DNA from: Alloalcanivorax marinus
GTDB lineage: Bacteria; Pseudomonadota; Gammaproteobacteria; Pseudomonadales; Alcanivoracaceae
Reading direction: 5' to 3'
Length of the DNA: 39,003 nt
Assembly (NCBI RefSeq): GCF_016906305.1
Contig: NZ_JADDOL010000024.1
Coordinates: forward strand, 1 to 39,003
Under the pieces are notes generated by a model, which did not search any database, had not been told where the DNA came from, and worked only from the letters and a program-made list of their open reading frames with translations. Position numbers and translations under genes: made by a program. Below, in pieces: positions 5,105 through 31,056 of this stretch (positions are counted from its first letter, which is position 1; the number at the start of each line of letters is the position of its first letter).

Positions 5105-5107
5105 ACC

Positions 5108-6034
5108 ATGACACTCAAAGAAACCGTGAACCAAACCGATCTGGCGGCGCCGTCGCCGCACCAGGAGGCCCTGGGGCTGACGCCGGGCCAGGCCGCGCTC
5201 AAGCGCGCCCGCCATCATCTCGGCCTGCAACTGGGGCTGGGCATGCTGCTGGTGATGGGCGTGTTCGCGCTGCTGGCGCCGTGGCTGGCGCCCCATGACC
5301 CCTATCTGCAGAACCTGTCCCTGCGGCTGCTGCCGCCGGCCTGGGTCGACGGCGGCCAGTGGCACTACGTGCTGGGCACCGACCATCTGGGGCGCGATTA
5401 CCTGAGCCGTATTATCTATGGCGCGCGCATTTCGATGATGATCGGTCTGGGCGCCGCCACCATCGGCGCGCTGATCGGCGTCACCCTGGGCATTATCGCC
5501 GGCTACTTCGGCGGCTGGCTGGATCAGGCGGTCAATTTCCTGGTTACCTGCCAGCTGGCGGTGCCCAGCCTGCTGCTGATCATGACGCTGGTGTTCGTGA
5601 TCGGCCAGTCGATCACGGTGGTGATCTTCGTGATCGGCGCCACCCACTGGGTGTTCTATCTGGTGGTCACGCGGGCCGCCACCCTGCGCATTCGCGAGCT
5701 GGATTTCGTGGCCGCCGCCGGCGCCATGGGCGCCAGCAAATGGCAGATCGCGGTGAAGGAAATCCTGCCCAACCTGGTCAACCAGATCATGGTGATCTTC
5801 ACCCTGGAAGTGGCGGTGGCGATTCTCAACGAGGCCACCCTGTCGTTCCTCGGCCTGGGCGTGCCGTCGCCGATCCCGTCCTGGGGGTTGATGATCGCCG
5901 AGGGCAAGACCGCCATGTTCTTCCAGCCCTGGCTGGTGATTCTGCCCGGCATCGCGCTGTTCGTGCTGGTGATCGCCATCAACCTGCTCGGCGACGGCGT
6001 GCGCGACGTCACCGTGACCAACAGGAGAAGCTGA
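5108..6034 (+). CDS. ABC importer permease, DppC type
   Basis: A 308-residue partner permease. A long cytoplasmic N-terminus (about 35 residues) precedes the first helix (LGLQLGLGMLLVMGVFALLAP). The OppC_N-like region follows with 'LGTDHLGRDYLSRIIYGARISM', typical of DppC/OppC proteins. The EAA-type coupling loop is 'LDFVAAAGAMGASKWQIAVKEILPN' around residue 200. It lies three bases after the DppB-type gene and one base before the ATPase gene, within one operon. Confidence 0.92.
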   Translation: MTLKETVNQTDLAAPSPHQEALGLTPGQAALKRARHHLGLQLGLGMLLVMGVFALLAPWLAPHDPYLQNLSLRLLPPAWVDGGQWHYVLGTDHLGRDYLSRIIYGARISMMIGLGAATIGALIGVTLGIIAGYFGGWLDQAVNFLVTCQLAVPSLLLIMTLVFVIGQSITVVIFVIGATHWVFYLVVTRAATLRIRELDFVAAAGAMGASKWQIAVKEILPNLVNQIMVIFTLEVAVAILNEATLSFLGLGVPSPIPSWGLMIAEGKTAMFFQPWLVILPGIALFVLVIAINLLGDGVRDVTVTNRRS

Positions 6035-6035
6035 C

Positions 6036-8105
6036 ATGAGCACGGAATCCCTGCTTGAGATCCGCGACCTGTCGGTGACCCTGCCCACCGACAGCAGCGC
6101 CCTGCGCGCGGTGCGCGGCGTCAGCCTGGACCTGCGCCGGGGCGAAACCCTGGGCATCGTCGGCGAGTCCGGCTCCGGCAAATCAATGACCGCCCTGGCG
6201 CTGATGAACCTGCTGCCACCGGCGGCCCGGCGCCAGGCCGCCGCCATCCGCTTCGGCGACGACGATCTGGCGGCGATGGGCGAGAAGGACCTGGCCGGCC
6301 GGGTGCGTGGCCGCCGCATCGGCATGATCTTCCAGGAGCCGATGACCAGCCTTAACCCGGTCTACACCATCGGCCGGCAGCTGATCGAAACCATGACCAT
6401 TCACGGTGGCACCTCGGTCGCCGCCGCCCGCCGCCGCGCCATCGAACTGCTGGAAAAGGTGGGCCTGCCGGACCCGGCCAGCCGCCTCAAGCAGTACCCC
6501 CACGAGATGTCCGGCGGCCAGCGTCAGCGGGTGATGATCGCCATGGCGCTGATGAACGAGCCGGAACTGCTGATCGCCGACGAGCCCACCACCGCCCTGG
6601 ACGTGACCATCCAGGCGCAGATCCTGCACTTGCTGAGCGAGCTGCAGCGGGAGCTGGGCATGGCCATGATTCTGATCACCCATGACCTGGGCGTGGTGTC
6701 GCGGGCCGCCGACCGCATCGCGGTGATGTACGCCGGCGACATCGTCGAAACCGGCACCACCGAGGCGGTGTTGAGCGCGCCCCGCCACCCCTACACGCAA
6801 GGGCTGCTGGAATGCGTGCCCGGCTACCGGGAAGCGTCCGCCCGCCGGCTCGGTTCGATCCCCGGTATCGTGCCGTCGATGACCGGCGAGATTCGCGGCT
6901 GCGCGTTCGCCGCGCGCTGCCCACGGGCGGTGCCCCGCTGCCACCAGGAGGATCCGCCGCGCCGCCCGGTGGCGGCGGGGCAGAGCGACGGGGCGGCGCG
7001 CAGCTTCGTGTGCCACGACCCGGAAGAGACCCGTGGCCGGGGCTTCGCCGGCGGCGACACCGCCACCGGCCCGGCAATCCGGCGCGGCGGCGACAGTGTA
7101 CTGCGGGTGGACGATGCCAGCTGCACCTTCTCCGTGCGGCGCGGGCTGTTCGGCAAACGCAAACCGCTGCGCGCCCTGGATCGGGTAAGCCTGGATATCC
7201 GCAAGGGCGAGGTACTGGCCCTGGTGGGTGAGTCCGGCTGCGGCAAGACCACCCTGACGCGCACCATCATGGGCCTGCAGACCCCGGACGCCGGCACCGT
7301 CACCCTGGCCGGCCGGCCCCTGGGCGAGCAACCGGCAAGGCAGCGCGCCAGGCTGATCCAGCCGATTTTCCAGGACCCCTATTCGTCCTTGAATCCGCGC
7401 CAGACCATCGGCGACCTCATCCGCCGGCCGCTGGTGATCAACCGGCTCGGCGACGCCCGCGAACAGCGCGCCAGGGTGCACCGCATGATGGACTACGTGG
7501 GCCTGCCGAGCCGCGTGTTCAACAGCTTCCCCGATCAGCTCTCCGGCGGGCAGCGCCAGCGCGCGGCCATCGCCCGGGCGCTGATTCTGGATCCCGAGAT
7601 CGTGATCTGCGACGAGCCCACCTCGGCGCTGGACGTGTCGGTGCAGGCGCAGATTCTCAACCTGCTGCTGGACCTGCGTGACGAGCTGGACCTGACCTAT
7701 CTGTTCGTCACCCACGACCTGTCCGTGGTGCGTCATCTGGCCGACCGGGTGGCGGTGATGTACCTGGGCGAGATCGTCGAGTGCGGCCCGGGGGAGCAGG
7801 TGCTGAACCGCCCCAAACACCCCTATACGCGGGCGCTGCTGGATTCGGCGCTGAGCATCGAGCCGTCCCTGGGCGTGCCGGCGCCGGATCTGGCCGGCGA
7901 CTTTCCCAATCCCATGAACCGGCCGTCCGGCTGCCCGTTCCACCCGCGCTGCCCGCTGGCCGATCAACGCTGCCGCCAGCGGGTGCCGGCCACCGAGACC
8001 CTGGACGGCACTCTGGTGAAATGCTGGAAGGCGGACACGCCGCCGCCGTCCGGCCCCCTGGATGTTCGCCCTGACCACAACAACAAAGAGGACGCCGCGC
8101 CATGA
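6036..8105 (+). CDS. Fused double ATP-binding subunit (DppD-DppF type)
   Basis: A 689-residue protein carrying both ATPase domains of a peptide-type importer in one chain, as in GsiA-like proteins. Domain 1 has Walker A GESGSGKS (43-50), signature MSGGQRQR and Walker [13 protein letters not shown]. Domain 2 has Walker A GESGCGKT near residue 397, signature LSGGQRQR and Walker [12 protein letters not shown]. Each domain ends in the cysteine-containing oligopeptide-transporter C-terminal motif ([14 protein letters not shown] and [14 protein letters not shown]), which in related proteins can hold an iron-sulfur cluster. All catalytic residues appear intact. It powers the two preceding permeases. 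Its stop overlaps the next start (ATGA). Confidence 0.92.
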
Positions 8106-17710: not shown

Positions 17711-18637
17711 TCAGCCGCTGGTCAGGCAGCGCAGCGCCATGCCCGCCGCCGCCGTGCGGTTCTCCACCCCCAGCTTGCGAAACACCTGCTCCAGGTGCTT
17801 GTTCACGGTACGCGGACTCAGGTCCAGAATCTGGCCGATCTCCCGGTTGGTCTTGCCCTGGGCGATCCACAGCAGCACCTGGGCTTCCCGGCGGGTCAGG
17901 TGCAGCTGCCGGCGCAGCAGTTCGCTTTCTTCCTCGCCGTCCCGTTGCAGCAGCCGGAACAGGCACTCGCCGGCGGCGGTGTCGCCCAGGTAGCGCAGGC
18001 GCAGTTCGGCGCCGTCGCCGGGACCGGCCGGGTCCAGGTCCAGGGCGGATTGGTCGCCGGGGGCCGGTTGGTGGTCGAGCCAGCGGCGCACCCGTGTGGC
18101 CAGGGCGGCCAGCCGGGGTTCCCGGTCGGCGCCGTGCAGGGCCAGGCGCTCCTCGGCGCCGGGGGTGGCCCAGCGCCAGCGGCCGGCGCGGTCGGTGGCG
18201 AAGGCGGCCTGGCCGAGCCGGTCCAGGGCGGTGTGGGCGCCGCGGGTGATGCGCGCGTTGTTCAGGTGCACGCGGATGCGGGCGATCAGTTCGTCCGGGC
18301 GCACCGGCTTGGTCACGTAGTCCACGCCGCCGGCCTCCAGGCCGCGCACCACGTCCTCGGCGTCGGTGAGGCCGGTCATGAAGATCACCGGCACCGCCGC
18401 CAGTTCCGGATGACGCTTCAGGCGCCGGCAGGTCTCGAAGCCGTCCATGTTGGGCATCAGGGCATCCAGCAGCACCAGGTCGGGCACCATTTTCTCGGCG
18501 ATGCCCAGGGCCTGTTCCCCTTCCAGGGCCACCAGGGCGGTGAGGCCGGCCCGGTCCAGGGCATGGTGGATCATGCCCAGGGAATCCGGGGAATCGTCCA
18601 CCACTAGGATGACGTCCTTTCGCGCCGCTTGGTTCAT
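17711..18637 (-). CDS. Response regulator, REC plus LuxR-type HTH
   Basis: A 308-residue two-component regulator. The receiver domain (about 8-125) has the acidic pair in VVDDSPD, phospho-accepting Asp58 in LVLLDALMPNMDG, Thr88 and Lys110 (DYVTKPVRP). A middle region of about 120 residues (130-245) is Arg/Ala-rich and unlike known domains, perhaps a divergent PAS-like linker. The C-terminus holds a LuxR/GerE helix-turn-helix: LTRREAQVLLWIAQGKTNRE and then LSPRTVNKHLEQVFRKLGV. Its start overlaps the kinase stop (ATGA), so the pair is co-expressed. The neighbouring amide-use genes are the probable targets; TGACGTA motifs upstream of urtA and fmdA are candidate sites. Confidence 0.9.
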   Translation of the reverse strand: MNQAARKDVILVVDDSPDSLGMIHHALDRAGLTALVALEGEQALGIAEKMVPDLVLLDALMPNMDGFETCRRLKRHPELAAVPVIFMTGLTDAEDVVRGLEAGGVDYVTKPVRPDELIARIRVHLNNARITRGAHTALDRLGQAAFATDRAGRWRWATPGAEERLALHGADREPRLAALATRVRRWLDHQPAPGDQSALDLDPAGPGDGAELRLRYLGDTAAGECLFRLLQRDGEEESELLRRQLHLTRREAQVLLWIAQGKTNREIGQILDLSPRTVNKHLEQVFRKLGVENRTAAAGMALRCLTSG

Positions 18638-21600
18638 GAGTGGGGCTCCAGTAAACGCATCAGGGCTTGGAAATCGAACCGCTCCAGGGCGGCCTTGAGG
18701 GCGCCGGCGTCGGTCTCCCCGAGCCGGCGCTGTTGTTCGGCGCGGGTCAGGGCGTCACGCAAGCCGGCCAGGTGACCGATTTCCGCCAGCGCCAGCAGTT
18801 CGTCGCGCAGGCTTTCGTCGAGCAGGGTGCGGGTGGGGATGCGGGCCGGCGGGGGCGGCGGGTCGTCCGGGTGGCGCCAGCTCAGGTTCAGGTGACGGGC
18901 CAGGCTGTCCAGCAGGCTGCTCAGTTTGAAGGGTTTCACCAGGTAATCGTCGTGCACGCCGTCGGCGCCCTGATGATCGTGATCGCGGGCGTTGGCGGAC
19001 AGCATCACCAGCGGGCCCCGGTAGCCCTGGGCGCGCAGCCGGCGCGCGGTGCGCCAGCCGTCCAGGCCGGGCATGCTGATGTCCAGCAGCACCAGGTCCG
19101 GCGGGTTCTGCGCCGCCAGGGCCAGGCCGGTGGCGCCGTCCGGGGCTTCGCTCACCTGGAAGCCCAGTGGTGTCAGCAGGTCGCTGACCAGCCCGCGGTG
19201 GGAGGCGTCGTCGTCGATCACCAGCAGGCCGCGGGCGGCGCCGTGGTAACCCACCACCGGGCGCGGGTCGTCCGCCTCGGCGGGCTGGCCGGAGACGGCC
19301 ACGCTGGAGAGCATCACCCACAGGCGGAACTCGCTGCCGCGCCCGGGGGCGCTGGTCACCTGCAGGTCGCCGCCCATGATGTCCACCAGCAGCTTGGTGA
19401 TGGTCAGCCCCAGGCCGGTGCCGTGCACCGCCGGCACGCCCGGTTTCCGGACCCGCTCGAAGGGTCGGAAAATGCGCTGCAGGTCCTCCTCGGCGATGCC
19501 CACGCCGGTATCGCGGATGGTGAATTCGGCCACCTGGTTGCGGTAGCGCACGTGCAGGGTGACCCGCCCCTGGCGGGTGAATTTGATGGCGTTGGAGAGC
19601 AGATTGATCAGGATCTGGCGCAGCCGCTTTTCGTCGGTGGCGACCCAGTCCGGCAGCCGCCCCTGGCTCTGGAATTCAAACTCGATGCCTTTGTCCCGGG
19701 CCTGCAGCCGGAACATGGTCACCAGCTCGTCGATCAGCGAGCGCAGCCGCACCCGGTTGCGGTACAGCTCCAGGCGGCCGGCCTCGATCTTGGAAATCTC
19801 CAGCAGGCCCTCGATCAGATCCGACAGATGGCCGGTGCTGCGGCGGATGGCGGCCACCGCCTCGCGGCGGTTGGCGGGGATGTCCGGGTCGTGTTCCAGC
19901 AGCTGGGCGTAGCCGAAGGCGGCGTTGAGCGGCGAGCGCAGTTCGTGGCTGAGGCCGGTGAGGTAGCGGCTCTTGGCCTGGTTGGCGGCCTCCGCCAGCT
20001 CCTTGGCCTTCTGCAGCGCGCGGTCGGTTTTTTCGTGGGCCTTGATCTCGGCGGTGAGCATGCGGGTCTGCCGCTGGGACTCTTCCTGGGCCACCACCCG
20101 GCTCTCATGGGCCAGCACGAACAGCCAGGCCACCACGCCGCTGATGATCAGCAGAATGGCGAACACCTTGGCCAGGGTGGTGGCCATCAGCTGGCGCACC
20201 GCCTCGTTCTCCACCGGCACCTGGTAATAGACCAGGGCGAGCAGCCCGGCCATCACCAGCGACACCAGCGTCAGCAGGCCGAGAAAATGGCCCAGCCGCG
20301 AGCGCAGTTGCTGCAGCAGGCGCTCCGGCAGCACGCCGCCGAGCCAGTCGATCAGCTGCTCCTGGAAGCGGGCGTGGTGTTTGCAGGCGTCGTTGCAGCG
20401 CGCGTCCAGGGAGCAGCACAGCGAGCAGATCGGGCCGTTGTAGGCCGGGCAGAACGCCATGTCCTCCTCGTCGAAGCGGTGCTCGCAGATGCAGCAGGGC
20501 TGGCCGCGCACCGCGGTGGCCGGCTCCGGACGGCGGGCGATGTAGTAGCGGCCGCCGGTGAGCAGGGCGATCAGCGGCGCGGTGACGAAGGCGGTGAGCA
20601 GCGCCAGGAACGACGCCAGGGCGCTGGTGGTGTCGCCCCACAGGCCGGCCCGGGCCAGCAGCCCCACGGCGGTGGCCAGCAGCATGGCGCCGAACCCCAC
20701 CGGGTTGAGGTCATAGAGGTAGGCGCGCTTGAACTCGATGTGTTTGGGGCTCAGCCCCAGGGGTTTGTTGATTACCAGGTCCGCCACCAGGGCGCCCATC
20801 CAGGCCACCGCCACCAGCGCGTAGCTGCCGAGAATCGATTCGAACGCCCGGTAGATGCCGATCTCCATCAGCACCAGGGCGATCACCACATTGAACACCA
20901 GCCACACCACCCGGCCCGGGTGGCTGTGGGTAAGCCGGGAGAAAAAGTTCGACCAGGCGATCGAGCCGGCGTAGGCGTTGGTGACATTGATCTTGAGCTG
21001 GGACAGCACCACGAAGATGCCGGCCAGGGCCAGCAGGGTGGCCGGGTGGGCGGTGATGTGGCTGAACGCCACCAGGTACATGTACATGGGCTCCTGGGCC
21101 TGGCTTTGCGGCAGACCATGGGAGAACGCCAGCACCGCCAGGAAGGAGCCGAACAGCGCCTTGAGCGCCCCCATCACCACCCAGCCCGGTCCGCCGGCCA
21201 GCATCGCCAGCCACCAGCGCCGCCGGCGCCCCGGGGCGGGTTCCGGCATGAAACGCAGAAAATCCACCTGCTCGCCGATCTGCGCCACCAGCGAGAACAG
21301 CACCGTGGCGGCGGCGCCGAACATCAGCGGATTGAAGCCGTCGGCGCCGGCGTCCAGGCCCGGGAAGCCGGCCCAGCGTTCCAGGGACGCCGGGTCCTGG
21401 AACAGGATGAACACGAACGGCGCCAGCTGCAGCAGCAGCCACAGCGGCTGGGTCCACACCTGGAACCGGCTGATGTAGGTGATGCCGTGGGTCACCAGGG
21501 GGATCGCCACCAGGGAACTGACCACATAGCCCAGGCTCAGCGGCAGGCCGAACATCACCTCCAGGGCCAGCGCCATGATCGCCGCTTCCAGGGCGAAGAA

Positions 21601-21984
21601 GATAAAGGTGAAGGAGGCGTAGATCAGCGAGGTCAGGGTCGAGCCCAGATAGCCGAAGCCGGCGCCCCGGGTGAGCAGGTCGATGTCGACCCCGTCGCGG
21701 GCGGCGTAATAGCTCACCGGCAGGCCAAGCAGAAACAGCACCGTCATCACCGCGGCGATCGCCCAGACGGCGTTGGTGAAGCCGTAGTTGAGGGTGGCGG
21801 CGCCGCCGATGGCCTCCAGCGCCAGAAACGAAATCGCCCCCAGGGCGGTGGCCGCCACCCGGCCGGCGGACCAGCGCCGCGCCGCCTTGCCGGTAAAGCG
21901 CAGCGCGAAGTCTTCCAGGGTCTGGTTGGCGACCCATTGGTTGTAATTGCGCCGCACCCGGAAGATGCGCTGCTGAATGGCCAT
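18634..21984 (-). CDS. Hybrid histidine kinase with NCS1-type transporter input domain
   Basis: A 1116-residue membrane sensor. Residues 1-490 resemble an NCS1 (nucleobase/allantoin-type) permease: YNQWVANQTLEDFALRFTG (14-32), 'GVDIDLLTRGAGFGYLGS' (98-115), 'YISRFQVWTQPLW' (170-182) and about twelve helices. Residues 497-537 form a cluster of nine Cys with two His (CCIC, FCP, ICSLCC, RCNDAC), a likely metal site. Two more helices (about 566-586, 604-626) and a coiled coil (630-670) lead to HisKA with His680 (LSHELRSPLN). The ATPase domain has N-box Asn798, DTGVG (825-829) and GTGLGL (855-860); the receiver has Asp968 and Lys1017. A C-terminal segment (1050-1116) follows. Start 21984 is chosen because homology begins there. 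It is divergent from urtA. Confidence 0.9.
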   Translation of the reverse strand: MAIQQRIFRVRRNYNQWVANQTLEDFALRFTGKAARRWSAGRVAATALGAISFLALEAIGGAATLNYGFTNAVWAIAAVMTVLFLLGLPVSYYAARDGVDIDLLTRGAGFGYLGSTLTSLIYASFTFIFFALEAAIMALALEVMFGLPLSLGYVVSSLVAIPLVTHGITYISRFQVWTQPLWLLLQLAPFVFILFQDPASLERWAGFPGLDAGADGFNPLMFGAAATVLFSLVAQIGEQVDFLRFMPEPAPGRRRRWWLAMLAGGPGWVVMGALKALFGSFLAVLAFSHGLPQSQAQEPMYMYLVAFSHITAHPATLLALAGIFVVLSQLKINVTNAYAGSIAWSNFFSRLTHSHPGRVVWLVFNVVIALVLMEIGIYRAFESILGSYALVAVAWMGALVADLVINKPLGLSPKHIEFKRAYLYDLNPVGFGAMLLATAVGLLARAGLWGDTTSALASFLALLTAFVTAPLIALLTGGRYYIARRPEPATAVRGQPCCICEHRFDEEDMAFCPAYNGPICSLCCSLDARCNDACKHHARFQEQLIDWLGGVLPERLLQQLRSRLGHFLGLLTLVSLVMAGLLALVYYQVPVENEAVRQLMATTLAKVFAILLIISGVVAWLFVLAHESRVVAQEESQRQTRMLTAEIKAHEKTDRALQKAKELAEAANQAKSRYLTGLSHELRSPLNAAFGYAQLLEHDPDIPANRREAVAAIRRSTGHLSDLIEGLLEISKIEAGRLELYRNRVRLRSLIDELVTMFRLQARDKGIEFEFQSQGRLPDWVATDEKRLRQILINLLSNAIKFTRQGRVTLHVRYRNQVAEFTIRDTGVGIAEEDLQRIFRPFERVRKPGVPAVHGTGLGLTITKLLVDIMGGDLQVTSAPGRGSEFRLWVMLSSVAVSGQPAEADDPRPVVGYHGAARGLLVIDDDASHRGLVSDLLTPLGFQVSEAPDGATGLALAAQNPPDLVLLDISMPGLDGWRTARRLRAQGYRGPLVMLSANARDHDHQGADGVHDDYLVKPFKLSSLLDSLARHLNLSWRHPDDPPPPPARIPTRTLLDESLRDELLALAEIGHLAGLRDALTRAEQQRRLGETDAGALKAALERFDFQALMRLLEPHS

Positions 21985-22024
21985 GGATTCCGTTGTCCGC
22001 AAAAGCGCTCTCAGGGAACGCGAA

Positions 22025-22037
22025 GCACGAATCGTGC
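22025..22037. promoter_or_regulatory. Palindrome in the kinase/urtA divergent promoter
   Basis: GCACGA-A-TCGTGC is a perfect 13-bp palindrome 41 bases upstream of the kinase start. It may be an operator for the kinase-regulator operon. No family of regulator is identified. Confidence 0.35.
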
Positions 22038-22107
22038 CTGAATCATTATGGGCGGGCCCCCCGACCCGTGTACGCGAGCTTAGAGCGGCCGCCGGGGCCC
22101 CGGAATG

Positions 22108-22134
22108 CGTCAAATGACGTAGGCCCATGACGTA
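22108..22134. promoter_or_regulatory. TGACGTA repeat cluster upstream of urtA
   Basis: CGTCA-AA-TGACG (22108-22119) is a perfect 12-bp inverted repeat. TGACGTA occurs at 22115-22121 and again in the same orientation at 22128-22134, 13 bases apart. The cluster is about 90-115 bases ahead of urtA, a good activator position. The reverse complement TACGTCA occurs at 29379-29385 upstream of fmdA. The response regulator encoded nearby is the best candidate to bind here. Confidence 0.5.
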
Positions 22135-22222: not shown

Positions 22223-23479
22223 ATGAAACAACGGAACCATCGCACACCGGGGCGGGCGCGCCGCCTGCTGGCGGGGCTGGCCGCGCTGCCGGCGCTGGTC
22301 GCACTGGCGTCGCCGGCGTTCGCCGCCGGGCCGCCCACCGCCGAGGTCAACACCACCGACCTGGCGGTCACCGACGACACCGTCAAGGTCGGCATTCTGC
22401 ATTCCATCACCGGCACCATGGCGATCAGCGAGATCGGTTCGGTGCAGGCGGAAAAGCTGGCCATCAAACAGATCAACGAAAGCGGCGGCGTGCTGGGGCG
22501 CCAGATCGAATTCGTGCAGGAAGACGGCGCCAGCGACTGGCCCACCTTTGCCGAGAAAACCCGCAAGCTGCTGCGCCAGGACAAGGTGGCGGCGATCTTC
22601 GGCTGCTGGACCTCCGCCTCCCGCAAGGCGGTGCTGCCGGTGATGGAACAGTTCAACGGCATGCTCTATTACCCCACCTTCTATGAAGGTCTGGAGCAGT
22701 CGCCCAACGTGATCTACACCGGCCAGGAAGCCACTCAGCAGATCCTCGCCGGCATCGACTGGGCGGTGAAGGAGAAGGGCGCCAAGACCTTCTACCTGCT
22801 CGGCTCCGACTACATCTGGCCGCGTACCTCCAACAAGATCGCCCGCAAGCACATCGAGAAGAAAGGGCTGAAAGTGGTGGGCGAGGAGTACTACCCGCTT
22901 GGCCACACCCAGTTCAACTCGGTGATCAACAAGATCAAGCTGCGCAAGCCGGACGTGATCTTCGCCTCCGTGGTGGGCGGTTCCAACGTGGCGTTCTACA
23001 AGCAGATGAAGGCCGCCGGCGTGGACTTCACCGACGAGAGCCCGCTGCTGCTCACCATTTCCGTCACCGAGGATGAAATCCGCGGCATCGGCGGCGAGAA
23101 CGTGAACGGCATCTACGCCTCCATGAAGTACTTCCAGAGCCTGGACAACGCCAACAACAAGGAATTCGTGGCCGCCTTCAAGGACGCCTACGGCGACGAC
23201 ATGGTGATCGGCGACGTGACTCAGGCCGCCTATCTGGGCCCCTGGTTGTGGAAGATGGCGGTGGAAAAAGCCGGCTCCTTCGACATCGACAAGATCCGCG
23301 AAGCGTCACCGGGTATCGAGTTCAAGAAAGCCCCGGAAGGCTACGTGCGCATCCACGAAAACCACCACCTGTGGTCGAAGACCCGCATCGGCCGGGCGCA
23401 ATCCAACGGTCAGTACGAAGTGGTCTACGAGACCAAGGAATTGATGGAGCCCGACCCGTTCCCCGAGGGCTATCAGTAA
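22223..23479 (+). CDS. urtA: Urea/short-chain-amide ABC transporter binding protein (UrtA/FmdD type)
   Basis: A 418-residue periplasmic binding protein of the branched-chain amino acid/amide family. The signal peptide runs to about residue 34 (ALASPAFA). The mature part has the UrtA/FmdD hallmarks 'VGILHSITGTMAISE', 'IFGCWTSASRKAVLPV' and 'YYPTFYEGLEQSPNVIYTGQ'. ATG at 22223 is chosen because GAGGGG lies eight bases upstream and it leaves a normal signal peptide. UrtA binds urea, and the close FmdD of methylotrophs binds short amides. The amidase and formamidase in this operon make amides the better guess, but both are possible. Confidence 0.9.
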   Translation: MKQRNHRTPGRARRLLAGLAALPALVALASPAFAAGPPTAEVNTTDLAVTDDTVKVGILHSITGTMAISEIGSVQAEKLAIKQINESGGVLGRQIEFVQEDGASDWPTFAEKTRKLLRQDKVAAIFGCWTSASRKAVLPVMEQFNGMLYYPTFYEGLEQSPNVIYTGQEATQQILAGIDWAVKEKGAKTFYLLGSDYIWPRTSNKIARKHIEKKGLKVVGEEYYPLGHTQFNSVINKIKLRKPDVIFASVVGGSNVAFYKQMKAAGVDFTDESPLLLTISVTEDEIRGIGGENVNGIYASMKYFQSLDNANNKEFVAAFKDAYGDDMVIGDVTQAAYLGPWLWKMAVEKAGSFDIDKIREASPGIEFKKAPEGYVRIHENHHLWSKTRIGRAQSNGQYEVVYETKELMEPDPFPEGYQ

Positions 23480-23545: not shown

Positions 23546-24472
23546 ATGTTCGCTGATTATTCTTCCACGGAATTGCTGTCCATCTTCGCCATGCAGGGCT
23601 TCGCCGGTCTGTCCCTGTTTTCCGTGTTCGTGCTGATGGCCATGGGGCTGGCCATCATTTTCGGGCAGATGGGGGTGATCAATATGGCCCACGGGGAGTT
23701 CATGATCCTCGGCGCCTACACCACCTATCTCACCTCCCAGTTTTTCCAGACTTACATGCCCGGCTTTTTCGCCGGCTACTTCTTTGTCGCCATGGTGCTG
23801 GCGTTCCTGATTTCCGGTGCCCTGGGGGCGTTCGTGGAGTGGGCCATGGTGCGCCATCTTTACCGACGACCGCTGGACACCCTGCTGGCCACCTGGGGGC
23901 TCAGCCTGATCATGCAGCAGGCCTACCGCAGCATTTTCGGCGCCCGGGAAGTGGGCGTGAACCTGCCCGACTGGATGATGGGCGCCTTCCAGGTCACCGA
24001 TCTGGTGGAGCTGCCGGTGAACGGGCTGTTCGTGATGATCATCGCCCTGTCCATCGCCCTGGCCGTGTACCTGCTCATGTTCCGCTCCGGCTGGGGCCGC
24101 AAGGTGCGCGCCGTGGTACAGAACCGGCCCATGGCCGAGGCGGTGGGCATCAACACCGCCGGCGTCGACCGCGCCACTTTCGCGCTGGGCTGCGGCATCG
24201 CCGGGGTGGCCGGCAGCGCCTTCACCATGATCGGCTCCACCGGGCCGTCGTCCGGCCAGGCCTACATCGTCGACACCTTCCTGGTGGTGGTGTTCGGCGG
24301 CGCCCAGAGCCTGATCGGCACCATCGTGTCCGCGTTCAGCATTTCCCAGGCCCAGTCCACCATGGAGTTCTTCCTGAGCGGATCCATGGCCAAGGTGCTG
24401 ACGCTGCTGACCGTGGTGATCATTCTGATGTTGCGTCCCGAAGGGCTGATGGCCCTCAAGATCCGTCGCTAG
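23546..24472 (+). CDS. urtB: Amide/urea ABC transporter permease (UrtB/FmdE type)
   Basis: A 308-residue LivH-family permease with about eight helices. The motif 'MGLAIIFGQMGVINMAHGEFMILGAYTTY' (about 33-61) is typical of UrtB/LivH. Urea-specific UrtB proteins usually carry a long N-terminal periplasmic extension (over 500 residues in total); this one lacks it and is the length of FmdE/LivH proteins, which favours amides. ATG at 23546 follows GGGGAG. The gene sits behind the intra-operon hairpin and nine bases ahead of the second permease. Confidence 0.88.
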   Translation: MFADYSSTELLSIFAMQGFAGLSLFSVFVLMAMGLAIIFGQMGVINMAHGEFMILGAYTTYLTSQFFQTYMPGFFAGYFFVAMVLAFLISGALGAFVEWAMVRHLYRRPLDTLLATWGLSLIMQQAYRSIFGAREVGVNLPDWMMGAFQVTDLVELPVNGLFVMIIALSIALAVYLLMFRSGWGRKVRAVVQNRPMAEAVGINTAGVDRATFALGCGIAGVAGSAFTMIGSTGPSSGQAYIVDTFLVVVFGGAQSLIGTIVSAFSISQAQSTMEFFLSGSMAKVLTLLTVVIILMLRPEGLMALKIRR

Positions 24473-24481
24473 GAGTCCGCC

Positions 24482-25657
24482 GTGAAATCCTCCTCTCCGC
24501 TTAGTTGGCTGAAGTCCCGGGAAGGGCTCTACTATCTGGCGCTGGCCCTGCTGCTGGTGGTGATCCTGCCGCTGGCCCTGGACCCGTTCCGTCTCAACAT
24601 GGTGGGCAAATACCTCACCTATGCCTTCGTCGCCATCGGTCTGGTGATGTGCTGGGGCAAGGCCGGCATTCTCAGCCTCGGCCAGGGCGTGTTCTTCGGT
24701 CTGGGCGGCTACTGCATGGCCATGTTCCTGAAGCTGGAAGCGTCCACCCCGGAGGCCACCGCCCACCAGTCCACGCCGGGTATTCCCGACTTCATGGACT
24801 GGAACCAGGTGACCGCGCTGCCCTGGTTCTGGGAACCCTTCCACAGCTTCTCGTTCACCCTGATCGCGGTGCTGCTGGTGCCCGGCCTGCTGGCCTTCAT
24901 TATCGGCGTGGCCATGTTCAAGCGCCGGGTCAGCGGCGTGTACTTCGCCATCATCACCCAGGCCATCGCCTCGATCCTGACCATTCTGATCATCGGGCAG
25001 CAGGGTTACACCGGGGGCGTCAACGGCATCACCGATCTGCAGACGCTGATGGGCTGGAGCATCCGCACCGACGCCGCCAAGACCACCCTGTACTTCGTCG
25101 GCGTGGGCACCCTGTTCGTGTGCCTGTTCGTGGCGCGCTGGGTGCAGAACAGCAAGTTCGGCCGCATCCTGGTGGCCATGCGTGACCAGGAAAACCGGGT
25201 GCGCTTCTCCGGCTACGACGTGGCCGCGTTCAAGATCTTCATCTTCTGTCTGGCGGCCATGTTCGCCGGCGTCGGCGGCGCCCTGTTCACCCTGCAGGTG
25301 GGCTTCATGTCGCCGTCGTTCGTGGGCATCGTGCCGTCCATCGAGATGGTGGTGTTCTGCGCCCTGGGTGGCCGCTATTCGCTGCTCGGCGGGGTCTACG
25401 GCGCGCTGCTGGTGAACGCCGCCAAGAGCGGTTTCTCCGAATCCTTCCCGGAGCTGTGGCCCTATGCCATGGGCGCCCTGTTCATCGGCGTGGTGCTGGC
25501 GTTTCCCAACGGGCTGGCCGGTCTGTACCGCCGCTATGTGATGCCGCTGGAAGACCGCCTGTTCAGCCGCAAGCCCGCCGCCAGGCCGGCCAGGCCGGAA
25601 CCGGCGCGCCGCGAGGACAAGACGCTGCCCGATCACCTGAGTGTGGAGAAACCCTGA
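24482..25657 (+). CDS. urtC: Amide/urea ABC transporter permease (UrtC/FmdF type)
   Basis: A 391-residue LivM-family permease with about nine helices. Family features are 'GLVMCWGKAGILSLGQGVFFGLGGYCMAMFLKLE' (around 55-85), 'GVYFAIITQAIASILTILII' and 'QQGYTGGVNGITDL', all seen in UrtC. It starts with GTG at 24482 behind GGAG. The last 35 residues are Arg/Pro-rich and cytoplasmic. Its stop overlaps the next start (TGATG). Confidence 0.9.
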   Translation: MKSSSPLSWLKSREGLYYLALALLLVVILPLALDPFRLNMVGKYLTYAFVAIGLVMCWGKAGILSLGQGVFFGLGGYCMAMFLKLEASTPEATAHQSTPGIPDFMDWNQVTALPWFWEPFHSFSFTLIAVLLVPGLLAFIIGVAMFKRRVSGVYFAIITQAIASILTILIIGQQGYTGGVNGITDLQTLMGWSIRTDAAKTTLYFVGVGTLFVCLFVARWVQNSKFGRILVAMRDQENRVRFSGYDVAAFKIFIFCLAAMFAGVGGALFTLQVGFMSPSFVGIVPSIEMVVFCALGGRYSLLGGVYGALLVNAAKSGFSESFPELWPYAMGALFIGVVLAFPNGLAGLYRRYVMPLEDRLFSRKPAARPARPEPARREDKTLPDHLSVEKP

Positions 25658-26400
25658 TGAACAAAGACGATTTCCTGCTCGCGGTGGAAGGGCTGACCGT
25701 GTCCTTCGACGGCTTCAAGGCGGTGGACGACCTGTCCTTCTATCTGGAGCCCCAGGAGATCCGCGTGATCATCGGCCCCAATGGCGCTGGCAAGACCACC
25801 GTGCTGGACCTGATCTGCGGCAAGACCCGCGCCACCGCCGGCTCGATCCGCTTTCGCGGCAAGGAGCTGACGAAAATGAAGGAGCACCAGATCGTGCACG
25901 CCGGGGTGGGGCGTAAGTTTCAGAACCCGTCGGTGTTCGAGGACCTGACCGTGTTCGAGAACCTGGAGGTGTCCTATCCGATGGGGCACACGGTAATGGG
26001 CTCGCTGGCGTTCAAGCGCGACGCCGCGGTGATCGAGGCGGTGGAAAGCGTGGCGCGCACCATCTTTCTGCACGACCTGCTGGCGGAGCCGGCGGGCCTG
26101 CTCAGCCACGGCCAGAAGCAGTGGCTGGAGATCGGCATGCTGCTGATCCAGAAGCCGGCCCTGCTGATGCTGGACGAGCCGGTGGCCGGCATGTCGGTGG
26201 CGGAGCGCAAGAAAACCGCCGAGCTGCTGCGGGTGATTACCCGCGACCACACCGTGCTGGTGATCGAGCACGACATGCAGTTCGTCGGCGATATCGCCGA
26301 CCGGGTGACGGTGATGCACCAGGGCAAGGTGCTGTCCGAGGGCTCCATCGACCACGTCAAGAACGACCCCAGGGTCATCGAAGTTTATCTGGGCCACTGA
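25657..26400 (+). CDS. urtD: Amide/urea ABC transporter ATPase (UrtD type)
   Basis: A 247-residue LivG-type ATPase. Walker A GPNGAGKT at 40-47, the degenerate signature LSHGQKQWLEIG typical of UrtD (about 152-163), Walker B LLMLDEPVAGM and switch His in VIEHDM are all present. 'GRKFQNPSVFEDLTVFENLEVS' is the UrtD-type Q-loop region. The start overlaps the urtC stop by one base, and a longer reading back to 25456 lies inside urtC. It forms the heterodimeric ATPase pair with the next gene. Confidence 0.92.
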   Translation: MNKDDFLLAVEGLTVSFDGFKAVDDLSFYLEPQEIRVIIGPNGAGKTTVLDLICGKTRATAGSIRFRGKELTKMKEHQIVHAGVGRKFQNPSVFEDLTVFENLEVSYPMGHTVMGSLAFKRDAAVIEAVESVARTIFLHDLLAEPAGLLSHGQKQWLEIGMLLIQKPALLMLDEPVAGMSVAERKKTAELLRVITRDHTVLVIEHDMQFVGDIADRVTVMHQGKVLSEGSIDHVKNDPRVIEVYLGH

Positions 26401-26417: not shown

Positions 26418-27107
26418 ATGCTTACCGTCGACCATCATTCCGTTGCCTACGGGCAAAGCACCATCATCCGCGATCTCAACCTGGGCATCGGCGAAAACGA
26501 GATCGTCGCCGTGGTGGGCCGCAACGGCATGGGCAAGACCACGCTGATGAAATCGCTGATCGGCATGACCCCCACCCGGGCCGGCCGGGTCACCCTCAAC
26601 GACACCGATCTCACCCCCCTGAAGAGCCATCAACGGGTGCGCGCCGGCCTGGGCTTCGTGCCCCAGGGGCGGATGATCTTCCCGACCCTGACGGTGCGCG
26701 AAAACATCGAGACCGGCCTGGCGGCGGTGGGCGAGAAGAAAGTGCCGGCGGATCTCTACGAGCTGTTTCCGGTGCTCGAGGAAATGCAGCACCGGCGCGG
26801 CGGCAACCTGTCCGGCGGCCAGCAACAGCAACTGGCCATCGCCCGGGCGCTGGCCACCCGGCCCAAGGTGCTGCTGCTGGACGAGCCCACCGAGGGCATC
26901 CAGCCGTCCATCATCCAGGACATGGCGCGCACCCTGAAGCGCATCCGCGATCAGCGCGGCCTGTCCATCGTGGTGTCCGAGCAGGTGCTGAGCTTCGTGA
27001 TGGACATCGCCGACCGCATCCTGGTGATCGAGAAAGGCGACATCGTCCACGAGGAAGCGGGCGAGGGCGCCGACCAGGACAAGATCGCGGGCTACCTGTC
27101 CGTTTAA
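26418..27107 (+). CDS. urtE: Amide/urea ABC transporter ATPase (UrtE type)
   Basis: A 229-residue LivF-type ATPase. Walker A GRNGMGKT at 34-41, signature LSGGQQQQLAIARAL, Walker B VLLLDEPTEGIQPS and 'VPQGRMIFPTLTVRENIETGL' match UrtE. ATG at 26418 follows GGGAGGAG by a few bases. It completes the five-part importer, and the amidase gene follows 36 bases later. Confidence 0.92.
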   Translation: MLTVDHHSVAYGQSTIIRDLNLGIGENEIVAVVGRNGMGKTTLMKSLIGMTPTRAGRVTLNDTDLTPLKSHQRVRAGLGFVPQGRMIFPTLTVRENIETGLAAVGEKKVPADLYELFPVLEEMQHRRGGNLSGGQQQQLAIARALATRPKVLLLDEPTEGIQPSIIQDMARTLKRIRDQRGLSIVVSEQVLSFVMDIADRILVIEKGDIVHEEAGEGADQDKIAGYLSV

Positions 27108-27143: not shown

Positions 27144-28184
27144 ATGCGACACGGAGACATTTCCAGCAGCCCGGACACGGTGGGCGTGGCCGTGGTCAAC
27201 TACAAGATGCCGCGCCTGCACAGCCGCGCCGAGGTGCTCGACAACGCTCGCGCCATCGCCGACATGATCCAGGGCATGAAGCAGGGCCTGCCGGGCATGG
27301 ACCTGGTGATCTTTCCCGAATACAGCACCATGGGCATCATGTACGACCCGGACGAAATGATGGACACCGCCGCCACCGTGCCCGGCGATGAAACCGCCAT
27401 CTTTGCCGCCGCCTGCCGCGAGGCCGATACCTGGGGCGTGTTCTCGCTCACCGGCGAGCGTCACGAAGAGCATCCGGAAAAAGCGCCCTACAACACCCTG
27501 GTGCTGATCAACAACCACGGCGAGGTGGTGCAGAAATACCGCAAGTGCATTCCCTGGTGCCCCATCGAAGGTTGGTACCCCGGCGACACCACCTACGTCA
27601 CCGAAGGCCCCAAGGGCATGAAGATCAGCCTGATCATCTGTGACGACGGCAACTACCCGGAAATCTGGCGGGACTGCGCCATGAAGGGCGCGGAACTGAT
27701 CGTGCGCTGCCAGGGCTATATGTACCCGGCCAAGGACCAGCAGGTGATGATGGCCAAGAGCATGGCCTGGGCCAACAACTGCTACGTGGCGGTGGCCAAC
27801 GCTACCGGCTTCGACGGCGTTTACTCGTACTTCGGCCACTCGGCGATCATCGGCTTCGACGGCCGCACCCTGGGCGAATGCGGCGAGGAGGAAATGGGCA
27901 TTCAATACGCCCAGCTTTCCGTCAGCCAGATCCGCGACGCCCGCGCCAACGACCAGTCCCAGAACCATCTGTTCAAGCTGTTGCACCGCGGCTACTCCGG
28001 CGTGCACGCCTCCGGCGACGGCGACAAGGGCATCGCCGACTGCCCCTTCGAGTTCTACCGCACCTGGGTGATGGACGCGCAGAAAGCGCAACAGAACGTG
28101 GAAGCCATCACCCGCACCACGGTGGGCGTGGCCGACTGCCCGGTGGGCGAGCTGCCGGTGGAGGGCAAGGAAAAAACCGCCTGA
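27144..28184 (+). CDS. amiE: Aliphatic amidase
   Basis: A 346-residue nitrilase-superfamily amidase that hydrolyses short aliphatic amides (acetamide, propionamide) to the acid and ammonia in the cytoplasm. It is the same length as the P. aeruginosa enzyme and, from memory of that sequence, nearly identical over long stretches (N-terminus MRHGDISSS, and [20 protein letters not shown]). The catalytic triad is in the same positions: Glu59 (FPEYS), Lys134 (KYRK) and Cys166 (IICDDG). A GAGGAG ribosome site precedes ATG. Unlike Pseudomonas, amiC, amiR and amiS are absent nearby; the Urt-type transporter and the kinase-regulator pair take their place. Confidence 0.97.
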
Positions 28185-28198: not shown

Positions 28199-29236
28199 AT
28201 GCCGTTTATCAACGACCGGCTGGCGGACAACCAGGAACAACGGGACCGCCAGCGCCACGCCAACGCGCCGCCCAGGGCCAGCCGCTTTGTGTTCGAACCG
28301 GAGCGGGTCATGGCGCTGCTGCGCGCCCGGCTGGTGGGCCAGGAGCCGGTGCTGGCCGCCCTGGAAGACACCCTGCAGGTGCTCAAGGCGGACCTGGCGG
28401 ACCCGCACCGCCCCCTGGCCGTGCACCTGTTCGTGGGCCCCACCGGGGTCGGTAAAACGGAAACCGCCCGCCTGCTCGCCGAGGCCATTCACGGCCGCCC
28501 CGATGCGCTCTGCCGCATCGACATGAACACCCTGGCCCAGGAGCACTACGCCGCCGCCCTCACCGGCGCGCCGCCGGGCTACGTGGGCAGCAAGGAAGGC
28601 CACACCCTGTTCGACGTGGACGCCATCCAGGGCAGCTTCAGCAAACCCGGCATCGTGCTCTTCGACGAACTGGAAAAAGCCGACACCACCGTGCTCCGCA
28701 CCCTGCTCAACGTCCTGGAGCGGGGCCACCTGCCGCTGTCCGGCGGCACCCGCAGCCTGGACTTCCGCAACAACCTTATTCTCATGACCAGCAACACCGG
28801 CGCCGCCGACGCCGCCGCCCGCCGGCGCCGCCGGGACCAGGGCTGGCGCCGCTGGCTCGGCGCCTCACCGAAACGCGAACAACGCCGCCTGGACCAGGCC
28901 CTGCGCGCCCGCTTCGACCCGGAATTCCTCAACCGCATCGACGCCATCCACCACTTCCAGCCCCTCGGCGAGGACCGCCTCGACGCGCTCCTCGACATCG
29001 AACTCCATAAACTCCACCAACGCCTGGCCCGCCGCGACCTCACCCTCACCCTGGACAACACCGCCCGCGCCTGGCTCCGCCAACACCACGACCCCCACTA
29101 CGGCGCCCGCCACCTCGCCCGCCGCCTGCGCACCCACCTCCACCCACCCCTCGCCCGCGCCCTCCTCAACCACCCCGACCGCACCCACTTCCACGCCACC
29201 CTCCACCAAGACCACCTCCACATCACCCCCGAATAA
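28199..29236 (+). CDS. amiB: AmiB-type AAA+ ATPase (single ClpB-D2-like module)
   Basis: A 345-residue ATPase made of one AAA+ module like the second domain of ClpB. Walker A GPTGVGKT (80-87), pore-loop segment GAPPGYVGSKEG (123-134, aromatic Tyr128), Walker B VLFDELEK (153-160), sensor-1 region LILMTSNTG, arginine-finger segment RARFDPEFLNRID and a C-terminal sensor-2 GAR motif are all present. There is no N-domain or first ATPase domain, so it is probably a small hexameric remodelling factor. In P. aeruginosa the equivalent gene (amiB) also follows amiE; its job is not settled. ATG at 28199 lies 14 bases after amiE. The last third has unusual composition, with CTC replacing CTG for Leu and G almost absent from the coding strand. 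Confidence 0.85.
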   Translation: MPFINDRLADNQEQRDRQRHANAPPRASRFVFEPERVMALLRARLVGQEPVLAALEDTLQVLKADLADPHRPLAVHLFVGPTGVGKTETARLLAEAIHGRPDALCRIDMNTLAQEHYAAALTGAPPGYVGSKEGHTLFDVDAIQGSFSKPGIVLFDELEKADTTVLRTLLNVLERGHLPLSGGTRSLDFRNNLILMTSNTGAADAAARRRRRDQGWRRWLGASPKREQRRLDQALRARFDPEFLNRIDAIHHFQPLGEDRLDALLDIELHKLHQRLARRDLTLTLDNTARAWLRQHHDPHYGARHLARRLRTHLHPPLARALLNHPDRTHFHATLHQDHLHITPE

Positions 29237-29343: not shown

Positions 29344-29378
29344 AAGCCCACCGCAACGAATAACGCCCCACGGCACAA

Positions 29379-29385
29379 TACGTCA
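29379..29385. promoter_or_regulatory. TACGTCA motif upstream of fmdA
   Basis: This is the exact reverse complement of the TGACGTA found twice upstream of urtA. It lies about 95 bases before the fmdA start, at the same distance as the urtA copies. On its own a 7-mer is weak evidence; the matched spacing in two co-functional promoters makes it worth listing. Confidence 0.35.
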
Positions 29386-29479
29386 TCCAACGTACCTCCC
29401 TCGGCCCTTTCACCAATGCCCCCCACCGTCCATGCTCCTTAATCTAACAACCAAAACAGGCTTGCCAACCGGAGGCACC

Positions 29480-30709
29480 ATGGCTGACACCATCATCAAG
29501 ATCGACCTGAAAAAATCCCCCTACGACAACGAAGGCGTCCACAACCGCTGGCACCCCGACATCCCCATGGCGGCCATGGTCAAACCCGGCGACGACTTCA
29601 TCCTCGAATGCCACGACTGGACCGGTGGCCAGATTCACAACGACGACAACGCCGAGGACGTGCGCGACGTGGACCTCACCCAGGTGCACTTCCTCACCGG
29701 CCCGGTGGGCGTGGAAGGGGCGGAGCCCGGCGACCTGCTGGTGGTCGATATCCTCGACATCGGCACCTTCGAAGAAAGCCAATGGGGCTTCAACGGCTTC
29801 TTCTCCAAACAGAACGGCGGCGGCTTTCTCACCGAACATTTCCCGGAAGCCCAGAAAACCATCTGGGACTTCAACGGCATGTTCACCAAGTCCCGCCACA
29901 TCCCCGGCGTGGAATTCGCCGGCCTGATCCACCCGGGCCTGATCGGCTGCCTGCCCTCCAAGGAAATGCTCAAGGAATGGAACGACCGGGAAAAAGCCCT
30001 CTACGACACCGACCCGGACCGGGTCCCCGGCCTGGTCAACCTGCCCTACGCGGACACCGCCCACATGGGCAAACTCAAGGGTAGTGAAAAGGACGCCGCC
30101 GCCGCCGAGGGCGCGCGCACGGTGCCGCCCCGGGAGCACGGCGGCAACTGCGACATCAAGGATCTGTCCCGCGGCTCCCAGGTGTATTTCCCGGTGTACG
30201 TGAAAGACGCCGGCCTGTCCGTGGGCGACCTGCACTTCAGCCAGGGCGATGGCGAGATCACCTTCTGTGGCGCCATCGAAATGGCCGGCTGGATCCATCT
30301 GCGGGTGAACCTGATCAAGGGCGGCATGGAGAAGTACGCCATCAAGAACCCGATCTTCAAACCCAGCCCCATGGCGCCCAAGTACGACGACTACCTGATC
30401 TTCGAAGGCATCTCCGTGGACGAGCAGGGCAAGCAGCATTATCTGGACGTGCACATCGCCTACCGCCAGGCCTGCCTCAACGCCATCGAGTACCTGAAGA
30501 AATTCGGCTACACCGGCGCCCAGGCCTACTCGCTGCTCGGCTGTGCCCCGGTGCAGGGTCACATCAGTGGCGTGGTGGACGTGCCCAACGCCTGCGCCAC
30601 CCTGTGGCTGCCCACGGACATCTTCGACTTCGACCTCAAGCCGGGCGTGGACGGACCGCAGCACAGCGTGGCGGGCAGCACCGACGTGCCGCTGGCGAAG
30701 GACAAATAG
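29480..30709 (+). CDS. fmdA: Formamidase (acetamidase/formamidase family)
   Basis: A 409-residue enzyme of the FmdA/AmdA family that hydrolyses formamide to formate and ammonia, a metal-linked hydrolase unrelated to AmiE. Family features include 'HNRWHPDIPMAAMVKPGDDF' (18-37), 'DWTGGQIHNDDNAEDVRDVD' (46-65) and a central HPGLIGCLPS. ATG at 29480 follows CCGGAGG at good spacing. The 243-base gap ahead of it, with repeats and a TACGTCA motif, suggests a promoter of its own. fmdB follows 14 bases later. Together with AmiE this gives the organism two amidases of different fold for short amides. Confidence 0.93.
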   Translation: MADTIIKIDLKKSPYDNEGVHNRWHPDIPMAAMVKPGDDFILECHDWTGGQIHNDDNAEDVRDVDLTQVHFLTGPVGVEGAEPGDLLVVDILDIGTFEESQWGFNGFFSKQNGGGFLTEHFPEAQKTIWDFNGMFTKSRHIPGVEFAGLIHPGLIGCLPSKEMLKEWNDREKALYDTDPDRVPGLVNLPYADTAHMGKLKGSEKDAAAAEGARTVPPREHGGNCDIKDLSRGSQVYFPVYVKDAGLSVGDLHFSQGDGEITFCGAIEMAGWIHLRVNLIKGGMEKYAIKNPIFKPSPMAPKYDDYLIFEGISVDEQGKQHYLDVHIAYRQACLNAIEYLKKFGYTGAQAYSLLGCAPVQGHISGVVDVPNACATLWLPTDIFDFDLKPGVDGPQHSVAGSTDVPLAKDK

Positions 30710-30723
30710 GGGAGGGCGCGAAC

Positions 30724-31056
30724 ATGCCGCTGTACGACTACAAGTGCGCCGAGCACGGCCTGTTTCATCAACTGGTGGAGGTGGCGGACGCGGGGGAAGC
30801 CCGCGCCTGCCCCACCTGCGACACCCTGTGCGCCCGGGTGATTCTGGTGGCGCCCACGGTACTGGACATGGCCCCGGACCGGCGCGCCGCCTTCGCGCGC
30901 AACGAACGGGCCGCCCACGAACCGCGCCGGGGCAACCTGCACTCGGAAAAGGAACAGGGCTGCTGCCACCACGCCAAAGCCAAACCGAAGGTGTTCTATA
31001 CCGCCGACGGCAAGAAGATGTTCCCCTCGGCGCGGCCCTGGATGATCAGTCACTAA
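30724..31056 (+). CDS. fmdB: FmdB-family zinc-ribbon protein
   Basis: A 110-residue protein beginning with the FmdB-type start MPLYDYKCAEHG and a second Cys pair CPTC (29-32), which together with Cys8 would bind zinc. The C-terminal half carries a second cysteine/histidine patch (GCCHHAK) and a conserved-looking end KMFPSARPWMIS. FmdB is a small protein found next to formamidase and was proposed as a regulator in methylotrophs; its real function is unclear. ATG at 30724 follows GGGGAGGG. It ends the amide operon. Confidence 0.88.
   Translation: MPLYDYKCAEHGLFHQLVEVADAGEARACPTCDTLCARVILVAPTVLDMAPDRRAAFARNERAAHEPRRGNLHSEKEQGCCHHAKAKPKVFYTADGKKMFPSARPWMISH

Follow-up and report, generated by a model that had tools for sequence, protein, structure and literature searches.

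The 39,003-nucleotide stretch of Alloalcanivorax marinus DNA considered here (contig NZ_JADDOL010000024.1, hereafter the window) encodes a hybrid sensor kinase in which a transporter-like domain, a cysteine-rich module and two long helices precede the kinase core and a receiver. Directly downstream, with a 4-base overlap, lies the gene for a response regulator of the receiver-LuxR type, and divergent from the kinase run urtABCDE, amiE, a Clp-like ATPase gene and fmdA. The subject of this work is this sensor, the family to which it belongs and the urea and amide genes that it is predicted to control (Table 1).

An initial annotation, made from the letters alone, had described a 1116-residue hybrid kinase with His680 in its core and Asp968 in its receiver. 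This was confirmed by the open frame and by Pfam, which placed HisKA (670-736), HATPase_c (783-891) and Response_reg (921-1028) above cut-off. The protein has the parts that define a hybrid histidine kinase, namely HisKA with its histidine (within SHELR), HATPase_c and a C-terminal receiver with its aspartate (within LLDISMP). Residues 574-666 drew a few weak Pfam matches, all below cut-off. A histidine phosphotransfer (HPt)-like tail was considered and rejected, as the AEIG-H stretch at residue 1067 has a histidine in 12 of 155 frames and tyrosine or phenylalanine in 7, the motif being absent from the remaining 136. No histidine is conserved beyond the receiver, which makes it likelier that phosphate passes directly to the separate regulator than that it takes an HPt step inside the same chain. 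Antisense to the kinase there is also an open frame of 1124 codons (window 18667-22041, plus strand), of a kind common in GC-rich DNA.

For the window protein, the proposed domain search returned the HisKA, HATPase and receiver families and no match to Transp_cyt_pur (PF02133). Pfam named only the kinase half, so the transporter call needed other evidence, in this case an AlphaFold model, Foldseek and relatives that do match PF02133. The model covered residues 1-665, with an alignment of the window protein and 58 relatives from genome contigs as input, and reached a predicted local distance difference test (pLDDT) score of 84.4 and a predicted template-modelling (pTM) score of 0.83. Foldseek rows 1-5 with this model were Mhp1 and CodB, both NCS1 transporters; the best solved matches were Mhp1 (2jln, E 5.3e-10) and CodB (7qoa_B, template-modelling score by target length 0.80), at 17-19% identity in the Foldseek rows. 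The NCS1-type fold first proposed for residues 1-490 is thus borne out, and an absence of NCS1 similarity did not arise. SLC5-type and related folds appeared at rank 6 and lower, below NCS1, and as the folds are related the difference is one of rank. No Amt fold occurred among the best 50 of 566 Foldseek rows at E ≤ 10. Work with profiles pointed the same way when stand-alone relatives were included: a 12-row profile of this kind found CodB at E 2.3e-8, and PF02133 scored above cut-off in four of seven stand-alone or distant relatives (loci L009, L092, L030 and L110, and not L028, L029 or L101). Moreover, the 58 fused relatives share 56-87% identity with the window protein across residues 1-665, and many positions of the transporter part are invariant. 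We conclude that residues 1-490 have, as modelled, an NCS1 fold in a divergent branch. Membership of the SLC5/STAC proteins was rejected, since the modelled linker differs from STAC and NCS1 outranks SLC5 in Foldseek. Elsewhere in the same genome, at the end of contig C1 (L009, 5393-6742), there is a stand-alone NCS1 permease, truncated where the contig stops, that scores above the PF02133 cut-off.

The transporter domain is followed in the window protein by nine cysteines (497, 498, 500, 512, 520, 523, 524, 530 and 534), which had been described as a nine-cysteine Cys/His cluster. Eight of them are kept in all 155 fused kinase frames, the window copy (L001) included, and in all five proteins with other outputs. 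The ninth, Cys498, is variable (Cys in 67 of the 155), and no histidine stands at an invariant position of the module in the alignment with the 58 relatives, so the cluster stands as eight conserved cysteines without an invariant histidine. One frame with an internal stop (L227) was dropped from the alignment. The module also occurs apart from any kinase: the permease of L101 has all eight cysteines, that of L029 has five, and the CxxC...CxxC core is kept in L028, L029, L110 and the distant L030; the distant permeases L092 and L093 have none of the eight. As stand-alone permeases carry all or part of it, the module came with the transporter and belongs to the transporter end, and the earlier picture of a cysteine cluster added between transporter and kinase is not supported.

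The structure prediction suggested for residues 480-640 was obtained within the model of 1-665. It gives the module as a hairpin of strands 509-512 and 517-520 with a helix from 521, followed by short helices and then by two long ones at 563-588 and 594-664, which correspond to the two extra helices noted at first sight before the kinase. Modelled alone, the module reached only pLDDT 70 and pTM 0.48, with hairpin and helix again predicted, and Foldseek returned mostly RING, PHD, FYVE, LIM or similar folds among 50 rows, all weak (best E 0.44). The hairpin-helix with its CxxC pairs resembles a treble-clef zinc finger, which is a lead only, and we lean slightly towards the module being a zinc-stabilised coupling piece, the metal itself being predicted. 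Judged by predicted structure, with no STAC profile searched, the four-helix STAC bundle is absent between transporter and kinase. A kinase with receiver at L159 (8944-10812) retains the helix hairpin and a cysteine-rich remnant in a genome with no transporter match, and is probably a decayed or shortened copy.

Table 1. Features of the sensor locus in the window.
Feature	Position	Strand	Basis and remarks
Receiver-LuxR response regulator, 308 residues	17711..18637	-	Pfam; predicted operator binder
Hybrid sensor kinase, 1116 residues	18634..21984	-	ATG start; open frame, Pfam, AlphaFold/Foldseek
Receiver domain (Asp968), residues 921-1028	18901..19224	-	Pfam
HisKA (His680) and HATPase_c, residues 670-891	19312..19977	-	Pfam
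Two long helices, residues 563-664	19993..20298	-	Model secondary structure; hairpin into a putative coiled coil
Eight-cysteine module, residues 497-534	20383..20496	-	CxxC-x11-C-x7-CxxCC-x5-C-x3-C; modelled two-strand hairpin and short helix
NCS1-like transporter domain, residues 1-490	20515..21984	-	AlphaFold, Foldseek (Mhp1, CodB); PF02133 in 4/7 relatives scanned
Predicted operator ATGCGTCAAATGACGTAG	22105..22122	.	Upstream of urtA; score 24.6
urtA, substrate-binding protein of urea/amide ATP-binding cassette (ABC) transporter	22223..23479	+	TIGR03407 over cut-off
urtB	23546..24472	+	TIGR03409
urtC	24482..25657	+	TIGR03408
urtD	25657..26400	+	TIGR03411; ATG picked by eye within frame 25456-26400
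urtE	26418..27107	+	TIGR03410; candidate start
amiE, aliphatic amidase	27144..28184	+	NF009802 over cut-off
Clp-like AAA ATPase	28199..29236	+	Best match ClpB C-terminal part, below cut-off; candidate start
Second predicted operator ATACGTCATCCAACGTAC	29378..29395	.	Upstream of fmdA; score 19.3; not in matrix building
fmdA, formamidase	29480..30709	+	NF045496 over cut-off; candidate start
Small CxxC protein	30724..31056	+	Inside open reading frame 30604-31056; FmdB-like by position and look only

Relatives of the sensor, counted as matches to residues 1-640 at E ≤ 1e-10 (a few of them stand-alone or partial), were found in 24 of 57 related genomes, in 18 of 369 sampled from the class and in 54 of 398 in a sample of the phylum that included the own genus. 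One genome scan confirmed at least 592 stretches as relatives, of which 80 were kept, and with so many the observation is not due to chance. The input module is also found on plasmids, in 534 of 72,556 records at E ≤ 1e-5, of which 342 are from Klebsiella; one place covered at least 80% in 513 of the matching records. The sole Klebsiella plasmid neighbourhood examined among the 342 records, that of K. variicola plasmid pX39-1 (L025), combines the sensor with a homologue of the regulator, urtABCDE and a gene annotated as formamidase, the regulator being encoded in the DNA and missing from the gene table of the record. No relative of the sensor was found in viral contigs.

Neighbourhoods were annotated by blastp with the window proteins and Acinetobacter urease proteins for 80 loci (L081-L160), 6 plasmid loci and 80 further loci, matches below set limits of identity, score or coverage being left unlabelled here and in the operator counts. 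The locus sets overlap (L164 and L081 share coordinates); exact duplicates were removed before counting, and the window copy was left out of the linkage and per-gene operator counts. Of 152 distinct fused sensors, 136 lie within 9 kb, as far as flanks reached, of at least one urt, amidase/formamidase or urease gene. By type, urt genes accompany 129, amidase or formamidase genes 95 and urease genes 17; urt and amidase/formamidase genes occur together in 94. The linkage to urtA, amiE and fmdA for which the initial annotation had recommended a survey is therefore real, and homologues both cysteine-less and unlinked did not materialise. Among the 16 sensors without such genes, 12 have less than 6 kb of flank on one side (one of these, the second sensor of L094, sits at one locus with a further sensor and urt genes), and the flanks are complete for the other four (L226, L228, L231 and L234). 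The genes upstream of the L226 sensor (4694-7402) look by eye like those of a molybdate ABC transporter. The regulator gene is directly downstream in 135 of the 145 fused sensors with at least 1.2 kb of sequence there, and a regulator or receiver frame is nearby in nine of the other ten, L207 being the exception.

Presence across genomes follows the same pattern. FmdA occurs in 22 of the 57 related genomes and 21 of these also have the sensor, which is found in 3 of the 35 without FmdA (Fisher p 1.9e-11, relatedness not corrected). Two of the three sensor-only genomes have urease-type neighbourhoods (L086 and L087), and in the third (G048) the frame is partial and close to the end of a contig. 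No link to nucleobase or hydantoin genes was seen in the fused loci, though no search aimed at such genes was made; the distant permease L030 is annotated next to hydantoinase-family genes.

The divergent arrangement of sensor and urtA led to a candidate operator. A consensus, ATACGTCAnnTGACGTAT, was derived from 112 divergent sensor/urtA gaps (109 distinct). The exact spaced dyad ATACG-N8-CGTAT is present in 41 gaps, and the best of any dyad in five shuffled sets was 2-3. A matrix built from the gaps scored at least 13 in 102 of the 109 distinct gaps, which are its own source; of 1,090 shuffled gaps, one reached that score. Over distinct upstream regions, with gene starts estimated from blastp alignments, a site precedes urtA in 109 of 125 and fmdA in 21 of 97; most of the urtA sites had contributed to the matrix, and none of the fmdA sites. 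Regions within the urt operon are nearly free of sites (urtB 0/121, urtC 1/118, urtD 0/118, urtE 0/116; together 1/473). The distance from the site to urtA is about 105 bp. The highest scores in the window were those before urtA (22105, score 24.6) and fmdA (29378, score 19.3), and the third-best place scored 5.7. Searched without mismatch, TRCGTCANNTGACGYA occurs once in the 4.05 Mb genome. The window's fmdA site, two positions off TRCGTCANNTGACGYA, was missed by a one-mismatch search, and a one-mismatch match on contig C6 was discarded when the matrix gave it no support. A scan for σ70 promoters at the operator found none. At L195, three operator matches stand before urtA, a displaced urtC and the sensor.

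An out-of-sample test is provided by L226, L228 and L234, where the sensors have no urt genes nearby. In each of these genomes TACGTCAAATGACGTA occurs once, directly before urtA of a distant urtABCDE operon. Two of the three genomes have urease alpha and accessory genes after the distant urt operon, and in the L234 genome urease alpha shares a contig with the site, at a distance of about 21 kb.

Considering the fold, the linkage and the operator together, the sensor is probably a transceptor kinase for urea and short amides that acts through the adjacent LuxR-type regulator on the predicted operator and switches on uptake and breakdown; a transceptor for amides or urea had been suggested initially, and fold and linkage are consistent with that. 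The NCS1-fold domain would bind external urea or a short amide such as formamide or acetamide, and the resulting conformational change would be relayed to the kinase by the cytoplasmic cysteine module and then by the helix hairpin and a coiled coil. The kinase would then phosphorylate the adjacent regulator, a dimer of which might bind ATACGTCAnnTGACGTAT upstream of urtA, at some loci also upstream of fmdA, and thereby switch on the uptake and breakdown genes. The joining of the input module to other outputs and a stand-alone permease at L101, both described below, also speak for this reading. Co-occurrence suggests that the operator is read by this regulator rather than by another protein.

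Several observations weigh against such a system. The ligand is deduced from gene context alone, residues 1-490 gave no Pfam match at E ≤ 1 (PF02133 included), and a PDB profile search with 33 fused sensors only found no transporter, its three weak matches (best E 0.94) being one PDZ-binding Cys-rich protein and two RING/zinc-finger proteins. The operator is also incomplete in its distribution: 16 of the 125 urtA regions have no site, as do all 19 ureC regions and all but one of 38 amiE regions. Among 48 loci chosen for a differing sensor neighbourhood, mostly urease-type or rearranged, a site scoring at least 13 was found in 20 (in some of these the gap had already been used for the matrix) and none in 28. 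A looser pattern gave one extra match in the L226 genome, and a control with the pattern read backwards gave 0, 0, 0 and 1 for L226, L228, L231 and L234. The Azospirillum sensor of L231 has full flanks in which none of the linked genes occurs, and its genome, with urease encoded at another place, gave no match to the operator. Finally, the rows share ancestry, so that the counts given above are not independent events.

Another way in which the input domain could work, though a rather unlikely one, is as a functioning importer of amides or urea, with the kinase reading transport flux or intracellular substrate instead of an external ligand. The fold is kept, and histidine uptake is reported for CbrA in the portions available of one account (PMC13022988). 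Stand-alone permeases of similar context exist as well: that of L101, 54% identical to the window's input domain, takes the place of urtA and faces the sensor across an operator, with fmdA and amiE following, while those of L028 and L110 adjoin urease genes. However, the ABC uptake system UrtABCDE is already encoded alongside the sensor, and in Ks-Amt5 the ion is described, in the text available, as bound and not translocated (PMC5764959).

It is equally doubtful that urea is the sole ligand, with amidase genes co-regulated since urea and amides occur together. The 17 urease-linked members, the family name of UrtA and two full-length urea carboxylase-type genes in the window's genome (C45:254597-258196 and C23:91411-94998) would fit this. 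Set against it are the joint presence of urt and amidase/formamidase genes at 94 of the 152 loci, the fact that amide and urease genes occur together at none of them, and the window's own genome, in which urease alpha has no match.

That the cysteine module is the actual sensor, responding to redox state or to zinc, nickel or iron, and adjusts the costly amide and urea enzymes accordingly is improbable. Its eight cysteines are invariant whatever the output, urease requires nickel, and the unlinked sensor of L226 has the molybdate-transporter-like neighbours mentioned above, but the presence of module or core in kinase-less permeases suggests that the module is older than any signalling role, a point of little weight since no search aimed at metal genes was made. 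Least probable is an ordinary hybrid kinase whose transporter-like part is only a membrane anchor, nitrogen status acting through other inputs: genes of this kind are otherwise usually under general nitrogen control, but the 56-87% identity of the fused relatives with many invariant transporter positions, and the joining of the entire input to unrelated outputs, argue against it.

These other outputs bear on how the probable urea/amide transceptor evolved. At L107 the input module is joined to PAS-GGDEF-EAL, and at L108 to PAS-PAS-kinase-receiver; a kinase without receiver follows it at L154 (by Pfam) and at L099 and L155 (by eye); for L154 and L155, fmdA is no more than 9 kb away. A quick tree was made from 99 transporter-domain rows out of 169 module frames, domains shorter than 380 residues and near-copies having been removed. 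It places 92 fused-protein rows on one branch (Shimodaira-Hasegawa-like approximate likelihood ratio test 88, below the starred level of 95), with four stand-alone permeases as neighbours and an unresolved fork at their base; the branches of the distant permeases are very long, and the root serves for drawing only. The first branches in the fused group are L107, L108 and L099, with L154 and L155 further in, and L226, L228 and L234 cluster with L194, L216 and L140, whose neighbours include urease genes. On balance we favour an NCS1-fold class of transporter-kinase transceptor, in which transporter, eight-cysteine module and membrane hairpin form a portable urea/amide-sensing cassette. This cassette would be joined to hybrid, simple and PAS kinases and to a cyclic di-GMP enzyme and, with one regulator and one conserved operator, would control how urea and amides are used in Alpha-, Beta- and Gammaproteobacteria, copies on plasmids of enteric bacteria included.

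Fusions of transporter and kinase have precedents, in the accessible parts of the literature, in the SLC5/STAC kinases (PMC5715377, PMC9100948, PMC13022988, PMC4834066) and in Ks-Amt5 (PMC5764959). The SLC5/STAC kinases CbrA, CrbS and RpuS share the fusion with the window sensor, which differs from them in its NCS1 fold, in having an eight-cysteine module and helix hairpin in place of STAC, in the absence of any PAS domain found by Pfam and in its probable urea/amide target genes. The likeness to CrbS, from what is available of two reports, extends to a hybrid architecture, a LuxR-type regulator, an imperfect palindrome in target promoters and control over the use of a small nutrient (PMC5715377, PMC9100948). 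Ks-Amt5 likewise uses a nutrient transporter domain as sensor fused to a histidine kinase, but with the Amt fold, another ligand and, in the text available, no mention of a cysteine module (PMC5764959). Mhp1 and CodB share the transporter fold and differ in having no kinase fusion, C-terminal cysteine module or urea/amide gene context.

Neighbouring genes like those of the window have been listed before. In Ectopseudomonas guguanensis G3, a hybrid kinase, a LuxR-family regulator and a urtABCDE operon are listed, with fmdA following by locus number (PMC13296017), and in Dechloromonas aromatica RCB a histidine kinase of 1131 residues, a receiver protein of 308 residues and UrtA are consecutive, with urease genes further on (PMC2907700). 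In the available parts of both sources these genes appear without transporter domain, cysteine module, ligand, operator or functional analysis; by gene order and size only, the two kinases would be related to the window sensor. Among the open-access titles and abstract openings listed, no description was found of an NCS1 kinase family, a urea/amide sensor kinase or the operator, though other papers could hold one. CbrA has been termed a rare transceptor (PMC13022988), and signalling proteins of the SLC5/STAC kind are described as present across bacterial phyla (PMC9100948), in each case as far as the source is accessible. The present family, whose status as a distinct group of sensors had been surmised from the start and is supported here, would be a widespread counterpart with its own transporter fold, linker and predicted operator, which makes ligand, coupling and regulon directly testable. 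It also offers a candidate regulator for urt-fmd-ami clusters, including the cluster on plasmids of enteric bacteria. In the window's cluster, the Clp-like ATPase between amiE and fmdA is one that we take to be AmiB.

Amidase genes are also the target of AmiC-AmiR, which consists of a binding protein and an antiterminator. Both this pair and the window sensor are tied to amidase genes, and their architectures differ. AmiC-AmiR is mentioned in the accessible part of one report, where a urt-fmd-ami cluster was searched for amiC and amiR and neither was found (PMC13209695). In the window's own genome, contig C28 has near its end a fragment similar to sensor residues 422-489 and, up to the contig end (L247), what appear by eye to be an AmiC- and AmiR-like pair and a double nitrilase.

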